Source: Accumulibacter sp.
GTDB taxonomy: Bacteria > Pseudomonadota > Gammaproteobacteria > Burkholderiales > Rhodocyclaceae
Length of the DNA stretch: 40,931 nt
Reading direction: 5' to 3'
Assembly: GCF_023806635.1 (NCBI RefSeq)
Contig: NZ_JAMTDQ010000005.1
Span: 1-40,931 of the forward strand
Position numbers and translations under genes: made by a program. Positions 4,896 through 40,931 of the stretch are shown piece by piece. The notes beneath the pieces are model-generated. The model did not search any database. It was not told the DNA's origin and saw nothing but the letters and a program-made list of their open reading frames with translations. Numbering within the stretch: the first letter of the stretch is position 1; each line of letters begins with the position of its first letter.

Positions 4896-5111
4896 CTACG
4901 ACGACGCCGACCCGGAGCCACGTTCCTCGCGCTTCTTCTTCCACGCGCCGAGCAGTGCAGCGCCAAGCCCGAGCAGAATCTCGTCGGCGAAAGGGATGAA
5001 GTCGGGAACGAACAGGTCGACGACGAACAGCACGGCGGCGAGGCCGAAGAGGACCGGAAAACGGAGGCCCGCCAGATAGGCGAGCAGCGGACCGATGATC
5101 AGTTTGCGCAT
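4896..5111 (-). CDS. small membrane protein, DUF6116-like
   Basis: The 71-residue protein is mostly one hydrophobic hairpin: LAGLRFPVLFGLAAVLFVVD, then a DLFVPDFIPFADEILLGLG segment, then a basic KKKREER tail. The LRFP and VPDFIPF.DEILL motifs match my recollection of the DUF6116 family, which has no known role. The ATG at 5111 fits the family start and has GGAG 9 bases upstream; the much longer frame above it is not supported. It is divergent from the TIR gene. Confidence 0.7.
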   Translation of the reverse strand: MRKLIIGPLLAYLAGLRFPVLFGLAAVLFVVDLFVPDFIPFADEILLGLGAALLGAWKKKREERGSGSASS

Positions 5112-5460
5112 GAAGGAAGGCTCCAGGGATTTCGCTCGTGGCAGCATCTGGCGCACCCCGGCACGAAGCACGCCGCGAGCGGCTGCCGCCATTCTAGCCG
5201 CCGAGCGTCCGGCAAGGTGGGGATGGAACGGCGCGAATCGCCGCGCGCCGCCGGCGAGTGGCCACCGCGGCTCGCGTCGTTGCAGTACCATTGCGCCGGC
5301 ACCGACGCGACGCGCGCGCCGCGCGGCGAAGGGGCCGTCTGCCCAGGCACTGCCAACCGGTCAGCGCGCGACAGCCCACCGTTCGCCCGGCCGATGTCGC
5401 GCCGGTGCGCCGGTCGCAGCGGGGTCGGCGAGGCAGACAACGTTCAGCGGGGGGTCTGAC
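5112..5460. other. 349-base intergenic region, divergent genes
   Basis: This gap separates the divergent DUF6116 and macro-like/TIR genes. It is extremely GC-rich, with runs such as GCGCGCGCCGCGCGGCG near 5311. I see no convincing -10/-35 pair, inverted repeat or small gene. Open frames through it are extensions of the flanking genes. Confidence 0.4.
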
Positions 5461-6828
5461 ATGCGGATCATTGACGAGTTGCCGGTACAGCGCCAGCGGG
5501 GCGGTGAGCCCGACGCCTGCATCCAGCTGCTGGCCGGCGACCTGGCGGCGATACCGGCGGCGCACGCGGTCGATGCGCTGGTCGTCTCGGCCTTTCCCGA
5601 CAGCTACACGCCGAACCCCGGAACCTTGTTCAGAAGCCTCTTCGAAAGAGGTCTCGACATGCGCGAGATTGCCCGCCAGAGGGCGGAGGACGAGCGCGTC
5701 CGCCTCGGCTGCTGGCTGTCGAGACCGCTGTCGCCGGAACTCGCCAGCCGCTTCAACTTTCACCGCATCATCTGCTTCGAGCCTTCGCATCCGGAATTCG
5801 TCGCCCACGCCGGCGTCGAGCGGCCGGACATCGAGGACCGCGTCGGCTTCGTCTTCCGGTGCCTGAACAACTTCATCATCCCCGGGCGCGACGCCGGACA
5901 CCGCTGCGCCATCGCCAGCGTCGCCATGCCGCTGCTGGCGACCGGCAACCAGCAGGTCGCACTCGACGAGTTGCTGCCGCGGCTGCTCGACGCCGCGATC
6001 TTCTGGCTCGAACAGGGGCTGCCGATCAGGCAGCTGAAGATCGTCGCCTTCGAGGCGGACAAGGTATCCGCTGCCGCCACGCTCTTCGCCGCATCGCGAC
6101 AGCGCTACGAGGAGCGGATCGCCAGCCTGCGCACGGGCGACGACGAACCGCCCCTGCGGCAACTCGCCGAGAAACTGGTGGCCAGCTGCGAGCGACATCT
6201 GCGCGACGAACTGCTGGGCGCCGCCGACGACGACGAGAAATCCCTGTTGCGGCGTCTCTTCGCACGCATCGATCGCCGTCCGGCGGTGGCAGCCGGCGGT
6301 GGCCGGACGGCGCCGGAAACCGTCGTCAGCGACGACCGGCGCGCCTACGACTTCTTCATCAGCTATGCGCACCGCCAGGAGCACGAGGTCGCCGAGTTCG
6401 TTCGCGCCCTGCAGCAGAGCGCGCCGTCGGCACGCATCTTCTACGATCGCGACTCGATCCCGAGCGGCGGGCAGTGGCTCAGCCTGATCTCCGACGCGGT
6501 CAACCGGACACGCCATTTCATCGCTGTCCTGTCGCCCGACTACACCGCCTCGCCGGTGTGCTGGGACGAGTTCCAGTGTGCCAAACTCAAGGAGTACAAC
6601 ACCCGGAGATCGCTGATCCGGACGCTGCGCCTGTACTCCGAACGCGACCTGCCGCCGATCATCGGCATCCACAGCTACATCGACTGTACCGAGGGAGACC
6701 TCGACAAGCTGCGCCAGTCGGCGACGCGCGTCGGCAGCCTGGTGCAGGACGACGGCGCGGGACCATGGGGGAAAGCCAGCACCGACGCCACGACCGCCGG
6801 TCGTCGACGCCGCCGCGGACCCGGCTAG
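5461..6828 (+). CDS. macro-like domain fused to TIR domain (putative NAD-linked immune or signalling protein)
   Basis: The 455-residue protein has two parts. Residues about 15-230 resemble a divergent macro domain: LLAGDLAAIPA, VDALVVSAFPDSY in place of the usual NAAN, then CAIASVAMPLLATGNQ and LRQLKIVAFE-like strands (seen as IRQLKIVAFE). Residues about 293-425 are a TIR domain: YDFFISYAHR, IFYDRDSIPSG, IAVLSPDYTASPVCWDEF, with Glu370 at the position of the catalytic Glu of NAD-cleaving TIRs. TIR enzymes make ADP-ribose-type signals, and macro domains bind such molecules (type II Thoeris ThsA has one). A sensor/producer pairing on one chain is inference. The ATG has a GGGGGG ribosome site. 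No partner gene is adjacent. Confidence 0.75.
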   Translation: MRIIDELPVQRQRGGEPDACIQLLAGDLAAIPAAHAVDALVVSAFPDSYTPNPGTLFRSLFERGLDMREIARQRAEDERVRLGCWLSRPLSPELASRFNFHRIICFEPSHPEFVAHAGVERPDIEDRVGFVFRCLNNFIIPGRDAGHRCAIASVAMPLLATGNQQVALDELLPRLLDAAIFWLEQGLPIRQLKIVAFEADKVSAAATLFAASRQRYEERIASLRTGDDEPPLRQLAEKLVASCERHLRDELLGAADDDEKSLLRRLFARIDRRPAVAAGGGRTAPETVVSDDRRAYDFFISYAHRQEHEVAEFVRALQQSAPSARIFYDRDSIPSGGQWLSLISDAVNRTRHFIAVLSPDYTASPVCWDEFQCAKLKEYNTRRSLIRTLRLYSERDLPPIIGIHSYIDCTEGDLDKLRQSATRVGSLVQDDGAGPWGKASTDATTAGRRRRRGPG

Positions 6829-31982: not shown

Positions 31983-32309
31983 CTACTTGCCGACTGCCGC
32001 CTTCGCCTTGTCGGCTGCGTCCTTGGTCGCGTCGGCGGCTTCCTTGGTTGCATCGGCGGCCTTGACGACCATCTCCTTGCCGGCTTCCTTGGTTGCCGCG
32101 ACGGCCTCCTTGCCAGCCTCCTTGGTCGCGTCGGCGGCCGCCCCGACGGCCTCGCCGGCCTTCTTGGCCGCTTCGTCGGCCTTCTGCTTGGCCTCGGCTG
32201 CGAGTCTTGCGGCCTCGGCCTTGGCGGCCTCGGCTTTCTTGGCGTCTTCACCGCAACCGGCAAGACCGATCGCGAGCAGGGCGGAAACGAGTATCAGGCG
32301 AATCTTCAT
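31983..32309 (-). CDS. small Ala/Lys-rich lipoprotein
   Basis: The 108-residue product starts MKIRLILVSALLAIGLAGC, a lipoprotein signal with the lipobox LAGC; Cys19 would be lipidated. The mature part is almost all Ala, Lys, Glu and Asp. It has imperfect repeats of the type ATKEAGKEA and DATKEAADATKD, an amphipathic helix typical of LEA-like or Lpp-like proteins. It may brace or protect the envelope; no enzyme motif is present. AGGAG precedes the ATG with 8-base spacing. It is convergent with the hemerythrin cyclase. The frame is open for 7 kb upstream, but only this part looks real. Confidence 0.8.
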   Translation of the reverse strand: MKIRLILVSALLAIGLAGCGEDAKKAEAAKAEAARLAAEAKQKADEAAKKAGEAVGAAADATKEAGKEAVAATKEAGKEMVVKAADATKEAADATKDAADKAKAAVGK

Positions 32310-32588
32310 GGCTTTGACTCCTGGGTTGGAAGTTGGCGGCGGCAAGCCGGCAGGCGATCGCCCGGTCCGTTCTTCGCCGACGAGCGGCGCGCGAGCAGCC
32401 CGCCGGCCGACCGTCAGTGCCGCCGCACGCCGGCGCGGGGTGCGTATGAGACCATATTCGCCGGCGTCCGTAAACCCGTTCGCCGCTGCCGGCTGCCGGT
32501 CAGCGCGCAGCATGTGCCAACCTGCGGCACGACGCGGGTCGCCAGCCGCATGCCCGCAGCCACTCCACCGCAGCTTGCCGGGAGCGGA

Positions 32589-33506
32589 ATGATCTCCGGC
32601 CAGCAGATCCTCGATGCCGATCTCGACGCCGCCTTGCGCGCGCTGCTCGGCAGCGACGGCGACGCCGTTGCCGCGCTCGACTCGGTCAGCGAGGTCGGCG
32701 GCGGGTCGATCTCGCGCAGCATGGTGGTGCGCAGCGGCCAGCGCCGCTGCTTCGTCAAGCTCAACGACGCCCGTCTGGCGGCGATGTTCGCCGCCGAAGC
32801 CGACGGCCTGGCGGCGCTGGCGGCCTGTCCGGCACTGCGCGTGCCACGCGTCTGCGGCCACGGAGTCAGTGGCCGGCATGCCTGGCTGGCACTCGAGCAT
32901 CTGGCGCTCGCTCCCCTGCGCGGGAATGCAGCAGGCGCTGCCGCCGGCCACGCGCTGGCGGCGATGCACCGCATCACGGGCAGCCACTTCGGCTGGCCGC
33001 GCGACAACTTCATCGGCAGCAGCCCGCAGTGCAACGCCGCGCAGCCGACGTGGCCGCTGTTCTTCGCCCGTCAGCGCCTGCTGCCGCAACTGGAACTGGC
33101 GAAACGGCATCGCCAGCCTGGCCGGCTGATCGCCAGCGGCGAGCGTCTGGCCGACGCACTGCCGGCGCTGTTCGTCGATCATCAGCCGCAGCCGAGTCTG
33201 CTGCACGGCGATCTCTGGTCCGGCAACGCCGCGCTCGACGACAGCGGCCGGCTGGCGCTCTTCGATCCGGCCGTCTACTGGGGCGATCGCGAAACCGATC
33301 TGGCGATGAGCGAGCTGTTCGGCGGTTTTCCCGACAGCTTCCACGCCGCCTACCGGGAAGCCTGGCCACTGACCGACGGTTGCGCCCAGCGCAAGCTGCT
33401 GTACCAGCTCTACCATGTGCTCAACCATCTGAACCTGTTCGGCGGTGGCTACCTGCAACAGGCCGAGCGGATGATCGGCCGACTGCTGGCCGAGACCGGC
33501 GGCTGA
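32589..33506 (+). CDS. fructosamine kinase family protein
   Basis: The 305-residue protein matches the fructosamine kinase/APH-like fold. It has GGGSISRSMVVRSGQRRCFVK (the nucleotide-binding N-lobe, given in part), a GHALAAMHR helix, FIGSSPQ, the catalytic HGDLWSGN (His206, Asp208), and LFDPAVYWGDRETDLAM. Family members phosphorylate ketoamine adducts of glycated proteins or free sugars for repair. ATG at 32589 was chosen for the domain start and a GGGAGCGG site upstream; an ATG 13 codons earlier is possible. The next gene starts 48 bases later. Confidence 0.87.
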   Translation: MISGQQILDADLDAALRALLGSDGDAVAALDSVSEVGGGSISRSMVVRSGQRRCFVKLNDARLAAMFAAEADGLAALAACPALRVPRVCGHGVSGRHAWLALEHLALAPLRGNAAGAAAGHALAAMHRITGSHFGWPRDNFIGSSPQCNAAQPTWPLFFARQRLLPQLELAKRHRQPGRLIASGERLADALPALFVDHQPQPSLLHGDLWSGNAALDDSGRLALFDPAVYWGDRETDLAMSELFGGFPDSFHAAYREAWPLTDGCAQRKLLYQLYHVLNHLNLFGGGYLQQAERMIGRLLAETGG

Positions 33507-33554
33507 ATCGCCGGTCGAGCGACCGGCTTGCGGCCCCCGGCCCGGAGAAAAGCG

Positions 33555-35216
33555 ATGGACATCCCCAGCCGCCAACAGGAACAACGGGTCGGACACTTCC
33601 GGCAAATCCTCCTCTGGCCCCTGCAGTTGATGCCGTTGGCCGCCGGCGGCCCCTTGCAGCAGCACCATCAGGTGCTCGCGCAGGAGAGCGCCAGCCAGCC
33701 GTGGCGCGAACTCGCGGACGAGTTCGGCGGCGATCCCGAGCAGTTCCAGGAACGTCACTACAGCGAGTTCGTCACCTTCCTGCCCTACGTGCAGCGCTTT
33801 CTCTACGGCGAAGGAGGTGGCGACGACGACAATCCACAGCAGGGGGGATCGCCGATCCGGGTCTTCCGCCGGCACGACGTGGCACAGGTGCGGATGAGTT
33901 TCAAGGACAGCGAAACGCCGTTGTGCTTCGACATCATTCACCTCGATCTCTACTTCTTCCACGACATCGACGTCGTCATCCTCGTCGTCGAGATCGCCGC
34001 CGACGATCTCGACCTGCGGCAGGTGCAGGACACGCTCTACCGTTTCGGCCGCGCCTATCCGCCGTACTGGGACGACGATGGCAGCGGTGGCCACTGCCTG
34101 CGGCGCAGCGAATGGCTCGCCGCCGACGGCCGCGTGCTGGCCACCTCGGATTACGAGAAGCGCAGCAAGTACCTGGCTTTCGTCAGCCGCTTCCGTGCCC
34201 CATGCATCTCGTCGCACTGGGAGTTCCTGCTGCGGCCGCTGGTTCTGCACCACTCGGACGAGGAGGGTCCGGTGCGCTACCGGCAGATCGAGTATCACCG
34301 CATGCCGCTGCTCGCCTATCTGGCGATGGACGATCCGCGCCGCCTCGGTCGCGGTGACTTCGCCCGCCTGGTGCTGGTCAGCGGCCCCGGCAGGAGCGGC
34401 TCGCTGCCGTATTCCGACCAGCACCTCGAGGATTTCGAGGCGCGCTTCTGCTACGACCGCTACTGGCATCCGCAGGCGGAGCAGAGCGGCACCCGGCTGC
34501 TCTCCTGCGGTCACGCGTTCATCATGGTCGGCAGCGCCCGCGATGCCTACTTCACCGGCGCCGAGAACGGGCTGCTCGGGCAGTTCCGTCACCAGTTCTT
34601 TCTCCTGGCACTGATTCCCCACTTCCACAAGGCGGCACTGCTGATGCTTTCCGATCGCCTGGTGACGGCGCTCAACCGGCTGCAGATCGGCAACGCCGAG
34701 TCGGTCAAGACCTTCAAGCGCGACATCCGCGAAGTGCTCGAGGTCTTCCTGCGCTTCACCCACCGTTACTGGTTCACCGAGATCTCCGACCAGGCACAGG
34801 CGCGGGCGCTGTTCGCCATGACCCGCGGACACCTCGGCACCGAGCGCCTGTACGCCGAACTGCGCGAGGAAATCCAGGACATGAGTCAATACCTCGACAG
34901 CGACAGTCTGCGCCGGCAGGCGAACACGGTCGTACGGCTGACCGTGGTCACCACCGCCGGTCTGATCGCCACGATCAGCACCGGCTTCCTCGGCATGAAC
35001 CTGATCGACGCGGCCCAGGAACCGCTGCCGGAGCGCCTCGCCTTCTTCGCCCTGGTCTTCATCCTCTCGGCCCTGCTGACGGGCTTCGCGATCGTCCGGT
35101 CGAAACGGCTGTCGGACTTTCTCGAAGCACTGTCCGACGAGCGCCTGTCGCCGGGCGACAAGCTGGCGACGCTGCTCGCCGTCTGGCGCAACAGGCGACG
35201 TCCGGGCAGCGGCTGA
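33555..35216 (+). CDS. CorA-like divalent cation transporter-type protein
   Basis: The 553-residue protein has a large soluble N-terminal region (about 1-450) and two C-terminal membrane helices (about 460-485 and 490-515). At the end of the first helix is GFLGMNLI, with the Gly-Met-Asn (480-482) that defines CorA Mg2+ channels. The soluble part is longer than in classical CorA and has no obvious signature except FKRDIREVLEVFLRF near the stalk. The family label is secure at the membrane end; the ion is unknown. It sits 130 bases before a P2 ATPase gene, so both may handle cations. Confidence 0.75.
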   Translation: MDIPSRQQEQRVGHFRQILLWPLQLMPLAAGGPLQQHHQVLAQESASQPWRELADEFGGDPEQFQERHYSEFVTFLPYVQRFLYGEGGGDDDNPQQGGSPIRVFRRHDVAQVRMSFKDSETPLCFDIIHLDLYFFHDIDVVILVVEIAADDLDLRQVQDTLYRFGRAYPPYWDDDGSGGHCLRRSEWLAADGRVLATSDYEKRSKYLAFVSRFRAPCISSHWEFLLRPLVLHHSDEEGPVRYRQIEYHRMPLLAYLAMDDPRRLGRGDFARLVLVSGPGRSGSLPYSDQHLEDFEARFCYDRYWHPQAEQSGTRLLSCGHAFIMVGSARDAYFTGAENGLLGQFRHQFFLLALIPHFHKAALLMLSDRLVTALNRLQIGNAESVKTFKRDIREVLEVFLRFTHRYWFTEISDQAQARALFAMTRGHLGTERLYAELREEIQDMSQYLDSDSLRRQANTVVRLTVVTTAGLIATISTGFLGMNLIDAAQEPLPERLAFFALVFILSALLTGFAIVRSKRLSDFLEALSDERLSPGDKLATLLAVWRNRRRPGSG

Positions 35217-35242
35217 CCGGCAGCGCCAAGCCCTGCCCAGCA

Positions 35243-35307
35243 ACCCTTGCCACCACCAGGAGCGGCAAACGGTCGTCCCGCGGTGGTGCTTTCCTGCCGC
35301 CAAGGGT
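35243..35307 (+). promoter_or_regulatory. nested inverted repeat in the 5' region of the P-type ATPase gene
   Basis: ACCCTTG pairs with CAAGGGT (35301-35307), and inside it CACCACC (35251-35257) pairs with GGTGGTG (35282-35288). Together they could form a stem-loop 65 bases long, ending 38 bases before the ATPase start. It could be an RNA control element or a terminator-like structure after the CorA-like gene. No family is recognised. Confidence 0.3.
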
Positions 35308-35345
35308 GTAGATTGTCGACCTGATCGCAACGAGAGTTCGCGCGC

Positions 35346-38024
35346 GTGCGGGTTCATTCGCTGACTGTGGAACAGGCTCTGGCCAGCCTGAACAGTTCGT
35401 CCACCGGACTGGCTGCCGGCGAGGCGGCGCGCCGGCTCGGCGAGTTCGGGCCGAACCTGCTCGAGGAGGTCGAGAAAAGGCATCTCCTGCTGCGCTTCGC
35501 GCAGGAGTTCACCCATTTCTTCGCCATTGTCCTGTGGATCGCTGCCGGCCTGTCGTTCGCTGCCGAGCATTTCGACCCGGGACAGGGAATGGCCAGGCTC
35601 GGCCTGGCCATCGTCGGTGTCATCGTCATCAACGGCGTCTTCTCGTTCTGGCAGGAGTACAGGGCGGAGCGGGCGGTCGCTGCCCTGCGCCGCCTGCTGC
35701 CACACCGGGTGAAGACACTGCGCGCCGGTGAGATCAGCGGCATTCTCGCCAGCGAGCTGGTACCGGGGGACATCGTCCTCCTCGAAGAGGGCGACTTCGT
35801 CCCCGCCGACTGCCGCCTGATCGAGCTTTCCGGCCTGCGGGTCAACCTGTCGACTGTGACCGGCGAGTCGCTCGCCAAGGCGCGCACGCTCGAACCCTCC
35901 GGCGAGGAATCGCCTCTGCAGGCGAAAAACATCGTTCTCGCCGGCACCTCGGTCGTTTCCGGGCAGGCACGCGGCGTCGTTTACGCCACTGGCATGCGCA
36001 CCGAGTTCGGCCGCATCGCCCACCTGACGCAAACCGCCGGCGAAGTCAGCTCGCCGCTGCAACGCGAGATCGCCCGCCTGTCGCGCATCGTCGCCGGCCT
36101 GGCCACCGGCATGGGTGTGCTCCTGTTCCTCGTCGGCCAGGCAATCGGGCTGCCGACCTGGGAGAACCTGCTCTTCGCCATCGGCATCATCGTCGCCAAC
36201 GTGCCCGAAGGACTGCTGCCGACCGTCACCCTGTCGCTGGCCATGGCAACGCAGCGAATGGCCAGGCGCAACGCGCTCGTGCGCCATCTGCCGGCGGTCG
36301 AGGCGCTCGGCTCGACGACCGTGATCTGCAGCGACAAGACGGGCACCCTGACGCAGAATCGGATGTCGGTGCAGGAACTGTGGATCGGCGGCGGCATGCT
36401 GCCCTGCGCCGAGCTGGCTCGGCGCGGACCGACGCTGCTCGACCACCGCGCGCTGTTCGTCAACGCGGCGCTCTGCCACAATCTGAAAGAGGTGGATGAG
36501 GAGGGTCGGCAGACCCTGCGTGGCGATCCGATGGAGATCGCGCTGGCCGCGGTCGGCCGCCAGTTTGCCGGCGACCTGGCCGGCTTCAGGCGTGTCGCCG
36601 AGATTGCCTTCGATACCGACCGCAAGCGCATGTCGGTGATCTGCGACACGCCGCAGGGTCGCATGCTCTACTGCAAGGGAGCCCCCGAAACGGTGCTCGC
36701 CGGCTGCACCAGCGTGCGCTTCGATGCCGGCGTCGCGCCACTCGATCCGGCTGCCCGCACCCGCCTGCTGGCGGCGCAGGATGAAATGGCGGGCCAGGGC
36801 CTGCGCGTGCTCGCCTTTGCCGATCGCGCCGTCGACGAACACGATGCGGCCGGCGAAGAACAGCAGATGGTTCTCGCCGGACTGATCGGCCTCGAGGATC
36901 CGCCGCGGCCCGAAGTGCCACCGGCGATCGCGCGCTGCAGGGAAGCCGGCATCCGGACGATCATGGTCACCGGCGACCACCCGCGCACCGGACTGGCGAT
37001 CGCCCGCCAGATCGGCCTGATCAGCGGCGAAGCGCCGACGGTGGTCAGCGGCGAGCAGCTGCGGTTGATGTCGCCGACGCAACTGCAGCTGGCGCTCGAC
37101 GCGCCCGAGATCCTCTTCGCCCGCGTCGCCGCCGAGCAGAAGATGCGCATCGTACAGGCGCTGCAGAACAAGGGCGAGATCGTCGCCGTCACCGGCGACG
37201 GCGTCAACGACGCGCCGGCGCTGAAGGCGGCGGACATCGGCATCGCCATGGGCATCGGCGGCACCGACGTCGCCAAGGAGGCCGCCGACCTGATCCTGCT
37301 CGACGACAACTTCGCCAGCATCGTCGCGGCGATCGAGGAAGGGCGGGCGGTGTTCGAGAACATCCGCAAGTTCCTGACCTACATCCTCAGCTCGAACATC
37401 CCCGAGCTGGTACCCTTTCTCGCCTTCGTCCTCTTGCGCATTCCGCTGCCACTGACCGTCATCCAGATCCTGGCCGTCGACCTCGGCACCGACATGCTGC
37501 CGGCGCTGGCGCTCGGCGCCGAGAAGCCCGACCCGGCGGTGATGCGACGCCCACCGCGCCAGCGTGGCGAGCGGCTGTTGTCGTGGGGCCTGCTCGCCCG
37601 CGCCTACCTCTTTCTCGGCGTCATCGAAGCGACGGCGGCGATGCTGGCCTTCTTCTTCGTCCTCGATGCCGCCGGCTGGCAGCATGGACAGACGCTCGAC
37701 CGCCTCGACCCGCTGTACCTGCAGGCGACCTCCGCCTGCCTGGCGACGATTGTCGTCATGCAGATGATGAACCTCTACCTTTGCCGCCACCCGCGGCAGT
37801 CGATCCTGAGCTACGGCCTCGGTGGCAATCGCTACCTGCTGCTCGGCATCGCCGCCGAACTGGCGGTGATCCTGTTCATCCTTTACACACCGCCCGGCAA
37901 CTGGCTCTTCGGCACGGCGGCGATCGGCAGCAGCAGCTGGCTGCTCGCCGCCGGCTGCGCCATCCTGATGTGCGCGTTCGAGGAGCTGCGCAAGGGCTGG
38001 CTGCGCCGCGGCCAGCGGAGCTGA
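35346..38024 (+). CDS. P2-type cation ATPase resembling Na+/K+-ATPase (IIC)
   Basis: The 892-residue ATPase has about ten membrane helices, an actuator TGES loop (VTGESLAKA), the phosphorylated Asp330 in CSDKTGTLTQN, and the hinge TGDGVND (616-622). In the fourth helix it has VANVPEGLLPTVTLSLA (Pro287, Glu288). The fifth and sixth helices read NIPELVPF (Glu687) and VDLGTDMLPA (Asp712, Asp716). These match the ion-site Glu779, Asp804 and Asp808 of Na+/K+-ATPases with the same spacing. It should pump Na+ and/or K+ using ATP. The GTG start has only a GAGAG upstream. The next gene follows after 3 bases. Confidence 0.9.
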   Translation: MRVHSLTVEQALASLNSSSTGLAAGEAARRLGEFGPNLLEEVEKRHLLLRFAQEFTHFFAIVLWIAAGLSFAAEHFDPGQGMARLGLAIVGVIVINGVFSFWQEYRAERAVAALRRLLPHRVKTLRAGEISGILASELVPGDIVLLEEGDFVPADCRLIELSGLRVNLSTVTGESLAKARTLEPSGEESPLQAKNIVLAGTSVVSGQARGVVYATGMRTEFGRIAHLTQTAGEVSSPLQREIARLSRIVAGLATGMGVLLFLVGQAIGLPTWENLLFAIGIIVANVPEGLLPTVTLSLAMATQRMARRNALVRHLPAVEALGSTTVICSDKTGTLTQNRMSVQELWIGGGMLPCAELARRGPTLLDHRALFVNAALCHNLKEVDEEGRQTLRGDPMEIALAAVGRQFAGDLAGFRRVAEIAFDTDRKRMSVICDTPQGRMLYCKGAPETVLAGCTSVRFDAGVAPLDPAARTRLLAAQDEMAGQGLRVLAFADRAVDEHDAAGEEQQMVLAGLIGLEDPPRPEVPPAIARCREAGIRTIMVTGDHPRTGLAIARQIGLISGEAPTVVSGEQLRLMSPTQLQLALDAPEILFARVAAEQKMRIVQALQNKGEIVAVTGDGVNDAPALKAADIGIAMGIGGTDVAKEAADLILLDDNFASIVAAIEEGRAVFENIRKFLTYILSSNIPELVPFLAFVLLRIPLPLTVIQILAVDLGTDMLPALALGAEKPDPAVMRRPPRQRGERLLSWGLLARAYLFLGVIEATAAMLAFFFVLDAAGWQHGQTLDRLDPLYLQATSACLATIVVMQMMNLYLCRHPRQSILSYGLGGNRYLLLGIAAELAVILFILYTPPGNWLFGTAAIGSSSWLLAAGCAILMCAFEELRKGWLRRGQRS

Positions 38025-38027
38025 GGC

Positions 38028-39569
38028 ATGTCGCCGCCGCTGCCGCCACTGATCAGCGCCCTGCTCGACCCGGCACGCTATCCACACCCGGCGGCGACGG
38101 TCGAATTGATCGAGACCCATGCCTCGTGGCTGCTGCTGGCAGGCGACTTCGCCTACAAGATCAAGAAACCGGTAGTCCTGCCCTTCCTCGACTACGGCAC
38201 GCTCGAGCGGCGCCGCATCTGCTGCGAGACCGAACTGCGCCTGAACCGCCGCTTTGCGCCGCAACTCTATCTGGCGGTACTGCCGATCGTCGGCGACCCG
38301 TCCGATCCGCGCATCGGCGGCACCGGCGAGGTGACCGAGTACGCAGTCCGGATGCGCCGCTTCGCCGAAGATGGCCGCCTCGACCGACTGTGCGCCCGCG
38401 GTCGGCTCGGCCGGCAGCGCGTCTCCGATCTGGCTGCGACGCTCGCCACCTTCCACGCCATGGCGGCGGCCCCCCCCGCCGACTCGCCTTTCGGCGAACC
38501 CGGACAGGTCCTCGCGCCGGCACTCGCCAACTTCGACGAACTGCGCGAGCTGCTGCCCGGCGACCAGACAGCGGTACGCCTCACTCGTCTGCGCGAGTGG
38601 ACGCAAACCGAGTTCGACCGCCTGCAGTCGCGGTTCGTCGCCCGCAAGGCGGACGGCCGCATACGCGATTGCCACGGTGACCTGCACCTGGGCAATCTGG
38701 TCGTCATCGACGGTCGGGTGACCCTCTTCGACTGTATCGAGTTCAGCGAGGCATTGCGCTGGATCGACGTGGCCAGCGAGATCGCCTTCACCTACATCGA
38801 CCTGCTCGACCATCGCCAGCCCGGTCTCGCCTGCTGGCTGCTCAACGAATGGCTGGCGTGCAGCGGCGACTACGAGGCCGTGCCGCTGCTGCGCTTCTAC
38901 GCCGTCTATCGCGCGCTCGTGCGGAGCAAGGTCGCCGCCATCCGCAACCGGCAGGATGGCGCCGATGACGGCCCGGCAGCCGGCTACCTGGCGCTTGCCG
39001 AGCGGCTGGTCGTACCGACGCCGCCGCGCCTGATCATCACCCATGGCGTCGCCGGCTGCGGCAAGACGCGCGCCTCACGCGACCTGCTTCTCGCCGATGC
39101 GGCAGCGGCGACGATTCGTCTGCGCTCCGATGTCGAGCGCAAGCGGCTGTTCGGACTGGCCGCCGCTGCCGACAGCGGATCGCGGTTGGACGGCGGCATC
39201 TATTCCGCCGCGGCCAGCGAGCGCACCTACGAGCGCCTGGCCGAACTGGCGCGCGGCCTTCTCGCTGCCGGCTGGTCGGTGATCGTCGACGCTGCGTTCC
39301 TCGAACGCCGCCGGCGCGCAGCCTTCCGCCAACTTGCCAGCCGTTCTGGCGCAGCCTTCTTCATCGTCGCGCCAGCGGCTTCGCCCGGCCAGCTGGTGGC
39401 ACGCATCCGCGGCCGCCTCGCCAGACGGCACGACGCCTCGGAAGCCGACCTGAGCGTGCTTGCACGCCAGCTGGCCCGCGTCGAAGAGCTTGGCGACGAG
39501 GAACGGGAAGAGCTGCTGCCGGAGCGGCACGCGGGGCAGGGCCAGGCGCGCCACCGACCGCTGGCGTGA
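38028..39569 (+). CDS. two-domain APH-family kinase / P-loop ATP-binding protein
   Basis: The 513-residue protein has an aminoglycoside-phosphotransferase-like first half (about 30-330): DFAYKIKKPVVLPF with the ATP Lys, catalytic CHGDLHLGN (Asp218) and LFDCIEFSEALRWID. An AAA_33-type P-loop domain follows (about 335-500), with Walker A GVAGCGKT (340-347). The same two-domain architecture is widespread in proteobacteria with no proven substrate. The Walker B and lid regions are short. It starts 3 bases after the ATPase stop, so it is co-transcribed with it; a link to ion or stress physiology is inference. Confidence 0.85.
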   Translation: MSPPLPPLISALLDPARYPHPAATVELIETHASWLLLAGDFAYKIKKPVVLPFLDYGTLERRRICCETELRLNRRFAPQLYLAVLPIVGDPSDPRIGGTGEVTEYAVRMRRFAEDGRLDRLCARGRLGRQRVSDLAATLATFHAMAAAPPADSPFGEPGQVLAPALANFDELRELLPGDQTAVRLTRLREWTQTEFDRLQSRFVARKADGRIRDCHGDLHLGNLVVIDGRVTLFDCIEFSEALRWIDVASEIAFTYIDLLDHRQPGLACWLLNEWLACSGDYEAVPLLRFYAVYRALVRSKVAAIRNRQDGADDGPAAGYLALAERLVVPTPPRLIITHGVAGCGKTRASRDLLLADAAAATIRLRSDVERKRLFGLAAAADSGSRLDGGIYSAAASERTYERLAELARGLLAAGWSVIVDAAFLERRRRAAFRQLASRSGAAFFIVAPAASPGQLVARIRGRLARRHDASEADLSVLARQLARVEELGDEEREELLPERHAGQGQARHRPLA

Positions 39570-40477: not shown

Positions 40478-40705
40478 ACGGGCGGCAGCAAGCCGTCCGG
40501 ACTCGCCGCAAGGGAGCAATACCGCCTGTCCGTCGCGATAGCGGTCGCGGATCGGCCGGCGGGCAATGCGACGCCGCGACGCCGCGACCCCGAATCCCCA
40601 CCAGCGCAGGCCGCCAATCCGGCGCGACCCTCTCCCGGTTTCGCTTGCAGCCCCGCACGGGCCCTCGTCCCGGCGCGTATGCGCCCAGCGCGGCCGGAAA
40701 GTGAC

Positions 40706-40727
40706 GGCGGGGGCCGAAGCCCCCGCC
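40706..40727 (-). terminator. terminator-like hairpin after the tmRNA gene
   Basis: On the minus strand GGCGGGGGC-TTCG-GCCCCCGCC forms a very stable 9-bp stem with a TTCG tetraloop, downstream of the tmRNA 3' end. Only three T follow within a few bases, so it is not a perfect Rho-independent terminator, but its place fits. Confidence 0.6.
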
Positions 40728-40734
40728 GATAGCC

Positions 40735-40931
40735 ATTCTGTTTATTGGACGGCTACGTCCTCAGCAGGCCTCAAGCGGCCAGTGCGAAACGCTCATCGTT
40801 GGCGTTTATGGATTTGCTCGGATTACGTCCGTCGCCTTTCGGGTCGCCTGCGCGCCATCTCTCGCCCTGTCGAAACCAGTACACCCCCGCAGTGGTGGAG
40901 GTGGCGGGAATCGAACCCGCGTCCAGAACGC
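40735..40931 (-). ncRNA. ssrA: tmRNA (ssrA), circularly permuted, partial
   Basis: Read on the minus strand, the T arm (40920-40904), acceptor strand CACCTCC, discriminator A and CCA (40895-40893) come first. They are followed by only CTGC (40892-40889), then by GGGGGTG (40888-40882) and the CTGGTTTCGAC block of the tRNA-like 5' half. GGGGGTG pairs with CACCTCC over 7 bp with one G-U at the third pair, the alanine identity. The tag frame follows (40803-40771): GCC AAC GAT ... TGA = ANDERFALAA. In ordinary tmRNA the 5' half precedes the 3' half, so this gene is permuted and its RNA should be two pieces. The upstream part of the acceptor piece is cut off by the window edge. The lower boundary is approximate; a GGACG-TAGC-CGTCC hairpin is at 40747-40760. 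Confidence 0.92.
40771..40803 (-). other. tmRNA tag reading frame
   Basis: This is the message-like part of the tmRNA: ten codons, A-N-D-E-R-F-A-L-A-A, then TGA. With the Ala carried by tmRNA it marks stalled peptides for ClpXP-type proteases, the LAA end being the usual degron. The sequence ANDERFALAA is typical of betaproteobacteria. Confidence 0.95.

Follow-up and report, generated by a model that had tools for sequence, protein, structure and literature searches.

Circularly permuted ssrA genes, whose product is transfer-messenger RNA (tmRNA), were reportedly described in the Betaproteobacteria by Sharkady and Williams in 2004 as a third lineage of two-piece tmRNA. For Prochlorococcus, two tmRNA pieces are reported from Northern blots (PMC1242208), and for Hodgkinia a 129-nt intervening sequence to which few reads map (PMC6581868). 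Here, we describe a gene of this kind at the end of contig G000:C5 of an Accumulibacter draft genome (4.47 Mb, 119 contigs); the stretch analysed is the entire contig (40931 bases, hereafter the window). It is very probably the sole tmRNA gene found in this genome, a circularly permuted gene of the betaproteobacterial form whose transcript would be processed into two paired, alanine-charged pieces for trans-translation. Comparison with its relatives shows that the segment joining the two halves comes in a short and a long form, and the gene trees suggest that ssrA alleles have probably been exchanged or recombined between lineages.

Results

The betaproteobacterial model RF01850 (beta_tmRNA) matched positions 40702-40931 on the minus strand with 203.5 bits (E 2.5e-64, cut-off 84), the model RF04321 (tmRNA_permuted) matched 40771-40931 on the same strand with 143.6 bits (cut-off 47), and ARAGORN also called a permuted tmRNA with the tag ANDERFALAA, its end coordinate of 40985 falling outside the contig. 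Read 5' to 3' on the minus strand, the gene is composed of the acceptor half, CCA, the joint CTGC and the coding half with the tag: the acceptor half thus lies upstream of the coding half with an intervening segment between them, the arrangement of a permuted two-piece gene. The tRNA-like domain has a 7-bp acceptor stem with G3-U70, a T-arm and A73, and a G-U at acceptor pair 3 marks tmRNA for alanyl-tRNA synthetase. The tag has the usual ALAA-like end and is followed by TGA. These results bear out the original prediction, made from the letters alone, of a permuted, two-piece-type gene in a lineage among those known to carry such genes (RF01850 being the betaproteobacterial kind), with halves four bases apart, an encoded CCA and seven acceptor pairs, the third a G-U. 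The extent then proposed, 40735-40931, does locate the gene but is too short, the family model reaching 40702 and taking in a terminal hairpin (Table 1).

The remainder of the gene is found on another contig. A search of the genome with 72 bases from the window end turned up a single other perfect copy, 55 bases long, at the extreme end of contig C40, the remaining matches being short and weak. Read on the minus strand, C5 begins with the last 55 bases of C40, an overlap of exactly 55 bases that looks like an assembler overlap, and the joined contigs yield a complete permuted tmRNA by ARAGORN. The C40 end matches positions 1-98 of RF04321 (65.3 bits) and carries the acceptor piece's 5' portion, the sequence past 40931 to which the original prediction had pointed. 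Upstream of the acceptor piece, C40 has a promoter-like, sigma-70-like site (TTGAGT-17-CATAAT, 9/12 matches; one found, against a mean of 0.1 in shuffles), preceded by a gene whose product we take to be FliE, judging the protein sequence by eye. An island inserted behind the contig break was considered and rejected as unlikely, because the exact 55-nt repeat stands at two contig ends and the search gave no other full copy.

No second tmRNA gene exceeded a cut-off in the draft genome: RF01849 gave no such match, RF01850 gave none besides the gene at the C5 end, and the best match of the ordinary one-piece model RF00023 over the whole genome (32.8 bits, below the cut-off of 47) fell on the C40 acceptor half of the same gene. 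A second, ordinary ssrA, which would have spoken against the original prediction, is thus absent above the cut-off. SmpB is encoded at G000:C105:7432-7857 (174.6 bits, cut-off 119.1).

The joint CTGC had been called very short in the original prediction, but 4 nt is not unusual for this gene. The gene was over the cut-off in 27 of 28 genomes of the genus, where the joint is 4 nt in 25 genes, 3 nt in one and 27 nt in one (G002). The family search placed 93 of 249 genomes over the cut-off. In all, 111 genes passed (27 from the genus and 84 others) and 106 were tabulated, leaving out G051 (acceptor half unreadable), G490 (partial, 49.4 bits) and G088, G447 and G237, whose joints are long. The 106 tabulated genes fall into two length classes, 46 having a joint of 3-4 nt and 60 one of 23-48 nt; no length between 4 and 23 nt occurs. 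CCA is encoded in 46/46 short-joint genes versus 4/60 long-joint genes. Position -2 of the joint is a purine in all 46 short bacterial genes. Of 22 stretches obtained by scanning named genomes for the pattern, 13 were labelled Accumulibacter, the others including Rhodocyclaceae, Rhodocyclales, Sulfuritalea, unspecified Betaproteobacteria, Pseudomonadota and one Hydrogenophaga. The short joint is a common form in the genus and in related bacteria, and no oddity of the window genome. No description of two joint forms in the RF01850 family was found in the literature searched, which did not extend to the 2004 betaproteobacterial paper, and we do not claim that they are unreported.

The two forms differ in fold and in sequence. 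Long joints pair with themselves and lengthen the acceptor stem: over the first eight pairs of the 60 genes, 439 of 480 cells are paired, where shuffles average 381 and never exceed 397. Pairing at position 76 occurs in 47 of the 60 genes (T-A 22, C-G 22, G-C 3) and is missing in 13. The window gene stands apart from this long-joint subclass (23-48 nt, pairing), its 4-nt joint giving a predicted open loop of 8 nt. Seventeen diagnostic columns, defined with seven unusual genomes excluded beforehand, separate 41 short from 58 long genes, and 15 of them lie 3' of the tag. At 16 of these columns the window gene has the short-form letter, and the remaining one falls outside its sequence, cut by the contig end. 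The short-form tail has its own probable pseudoknot 3' of the tag: in the 32 of 39 available sequences used for the helix test, three helices (the end of the tag frame and the two pseudoknot stems) had 99.0% of cells paired, a share that never exceeded 45.4% after sliding. Both partners change in three of the pairs, two of which belong to the first pseudoknot stem and the other to the tag-end helix. The second stem is conserved, shows no compensatory change and fails at one pair in three sequences. Some genes are mixed: in G058 and G049 the joint is short but the tail is of the long form, and in G039 most diagnostic columns are long-form.

A tmRNA tree was built from 101 genes with the joint removed. 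The window gene, being truncated at the contig end, is absent from it, and its class therefore rests on the joint and the diagnostic columns. On this tree the joint form changes 3 times (shuffled mean 32); the acceptor-to-tag part alone requires 4 changes (shuffled mean 33) and the tail alone also 4 (shuffled mean 30). RpoB was obtained for 26 of 30 genomes, and on the RpoB tree the form requires 10 changes, as scattered as in shuffles (mean 9.6). The same 24 genomes show 3 changes on the tmRNA tree versus 10 on that of RpoB, and 10 remain (23 genomes) after removal of three genomes with duplicated RpoB. At one locus both forms are met: downstream of gph-ubiG, G079 (one contig) carries a short-form ssrA and G046 (6 contigs) a long-form one. 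These two genomes group together as a pair (support 98) on a UbiG tree with eight rows, and by RpoB they belong to one fully supported group of ten without being nearest neighbours. Elsewhere, the neighbours of ssrA, read from the sequence, differ.

Short joints also occur in viruses, where they are similar or shorter. A scan of viral contigs for the pattern with CCA, limited to 0-12 nt after CCA, reported 81 loci; in the 80 that were read, joints are mostly 4-5 and 11-12 nt with a minimum of 3, and at least one locus (L206) lacks a T-loop and is probably a chance match. Without the CCA requirement and with a limit of 0-6 nt, 93 loci were reported and 80 read; of the 63 distinct matches, 57 show a T-loop together with six or more acceptor pairs, and in these A73 is separated from G1 by 4-6 nt. 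Among distinct viral genes, the purine at position -2 is present in 59 of 60 that carry CCA and in 49 of 57 when CCA is not required. Short joints in viral and alphaproteobacterial-type genes place the window joint within a known kind. The idea that 3 nt is a floor set by RNase P was abandoned: in viral genes that lack CCA, as few as 4 nt separate A73 from G1, whereas a 3-nt joint together with CCA makes 6 nt. The window gene itself had matches in 32 phage records; among the 15 listed, none covered more than 29% of its length.

Several other permuted tmRNAs were noted in the course of these scans. In Hydrogenophaga aromaticivorans, one with a 3-nt joint, TGC (L020:52-232, minus strand), looks near-identical over the printed stretch to that of an IMG/VR viral contig (L200:2682-2862, minus strand) and is for this reason probably prophage-borne; a search of phage records with the L200 tmRNA gave no match. 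Another, with the 5-nt joint TCGAC (L068:1349-1588, minus strand), belongs to genome G334, from a different family in the same order, and is possibly phage-borne; this joint also occurs on viral contigs L174, L192 and L214. The permuted tmRNA of Synechococcus phage S-CAM1 lies at L332:260-528, over which the record has no annotated feature.

Table 1. Parts of the permuted tmRNA gene in the window
Feature	Position	Strand	Remark
Acceptor piece, part within the window (T-arm, acceptor 3' strand, A73, CCA)	40893-40931	-	remaining 5' part on contig C40
Acceptor 3' strand CACCTCC	40903-40897	-	read 5' to 3'
Discriminator A (A73)	40896	-	
Encoded CCA	40895-40893	-	
Intervening segment CTGC, from CCA to coding piece	40889-40892	-	
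Acceptor 5' strand GGGGGTG	40882-40888	-	7/7 pairs with 40897-40903, G-U at pair 3
Coding piece	40702-40888	-	extent by Rfam RF01850
Tag frame ANDERFALAA and stop TGA	40771-40803	-	
Probable pseudoknot 3' of the tag, sequence version of the short-joint type	40729-40760	-	compensatory changes in first stem; second stem conserved, with none
GC-rich terminal hairpin of the coding piece	40706-40727	-	

Elsewhere in the window, a TIR domain (PF13676, E 5.2e-16; more weakly PF01582) is the sole Pfam feature of the 577-aa protein encoded at positions 5095-6828 (plus strand). An open frame of 2353 aa at 31983-39044 (minus strand) has no Pfam match, is overlapped by long plus-strand frames and is perhaps an antisense frame in GC-rich DNA.

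Discussion

A maturation pathway may be suggested for the short-joint precursor. A single transcript would be made and its acceptor stem would fold as a hairpin closed by the 8-nt loop A73-CCA-CTGC; RNase P would cleave 5' of G1, and the four leftover bases would be trimmed back to CCA, CTGC serving both as RNase P leader and as a 4-nt 3' trailer. The two pieces would remain paired, receive alanine and perform trans-translation. That the maturation of such a precursor is simple, as first supposed, is plausible. The short form would leave CCA unpaired, whereas the long form would bury the equivalent bases in a helix continuing the acceptor stem, which would need opening first, and, being mostly without an encoded CCA, it would need the CCA-adding enzyme. 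PMC12710915 reports that RNase P required a 3' RCCA motif to cleave a non-tRNA substrate, which fits the open CCA of the short form, and RNase P and tRNase Z are regarded in a review as the probable processors of a permuted precursor (PMC3985003).

Some points weigh against our account of the gene and its processing: (i), the genome is a draft in 119 contigs and ssrA is split by a contig break; (ii), one member of the genus, G002, carries the long form; (iii), the two pieces, their ends and the processing enzymes are what we infer from sequence and (iv), RNase P would presumably have to act on a very tight loop. The last point would be met if the joint of the same permuted gene were first opened by another endonuclease, of the RNase E or tRNase Z type: tRNase Z is indeed named in the review cited above, and an 8-nt loop seems tight for an enzyme whose protein touches positions -8 to -3 of the pre-tRNA leader, according to PMC12710915. 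We consider this improbable. As for G002, its gene (G002:C37:45432-45639) is the sole long-joint member of the genus, and the long joint is possibly due to replacement or misbinning. Its neighbours differ from those at the other genus loci read and, judging from the sequence, are presumably an acetyl-CoA synthetase and a transporter. Finally, the contig does stop within the gene, which might suggest a tmRNA broken or mis-assembled at a contig end, but the exact 55-nt overlap lets C40 complete it and the same CTGC joint is present in the one-contig genomes G010 and G015. We regard such an artefact as extremely improbable, and the family-model scores together with these two genomes rule out chance as well.

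How did the two forms come to be distributed as they are? Since the joint form tracks the tmRNA tree and conflicts with RpoB, exchange or recombination of ssrA alleles between lineages appears probable. It is tempting to go further and to speculate, tentatively and with real reservations, that ssrA exists as two exchangeable alleles of opposite precursor design, one with an open 3-4 nt joint and a CCA ready for RNase P, the other with a 23-48 nt joint-hiding helix and a CCA that is mostly added, and that these are swapped by horizontal transfer or recombination, sometimes for the joint alone. The short form could instead have arisen many times through in-place deletion, with no gene exchange between lineages. 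The short joints with long-form tails in G058 and G049, the mostly long-form columns of G039 and the presence of both forms beside gph-ubiG are in keeping with such deletions. So is the RpoB tree of the nine genomes of at most 10 contigs, which needs just 2 changes; this is also a real caveat for allele exchange, since much of the conflict then rests on draft genomes, in which misbinning could inflate it. Against repeated deletion, the form follows the gene tree on the acceptor-to-tag part and on the tail, each taken alone, and changes 3 times on the tmRNA tree but 10 times on that of RpoB in the same genomes; we consider it unlikely. If the proposal of two exchangeable alleles is true, tmRNA ends would be freed by either of two processing routes that are interchangeable in evolution.

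Taken alone, the gene is biologically unsurprising. The tight link between joint length and CCA encoding provides a natural pair of substrates on which RNase P, trimming and CCA addition can be compared on a closed acceptor hairpin, and the comparison also bears on whether ssrA alleles move between bacteria.

Relative to the betaproteobacterial tmRNA of RF01850, the window gene agrees in gene order, acceptor stem, T-arm, tag region and terminal hairpin, but its joint of 4 nt stands against 28 model positions between the printed blocks, and it encodes CCA; relative to the long-joint genes of that family, its stretch after the tag is a different sequence version. Permuted tmRNAs of what we take to be the alphaproteobacterial type were read in genomes of the same phylum (29 loci, the best-scoring of 158 genomes over the cut-off, L295-L300 being chosen for their short-looking match). 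They share the permuted order and some have short joints after CCA, of 5 nt (L141) and 6 nt (L295), but their T-arm and coding-piece sequences differ from those of the window gene and 26 of the 29 loci have joints of at least 22 nt. The tmRNA of phage S-CAM1, of the phage/cyanobacterial type (RF01851, 128.2 bits), is also permuted, with five bases from A73 to G1 and no CCA after A73, as in 55 of 57 viral-contig matches, whereas the window gene has seven bases there, CCA and CTGC.
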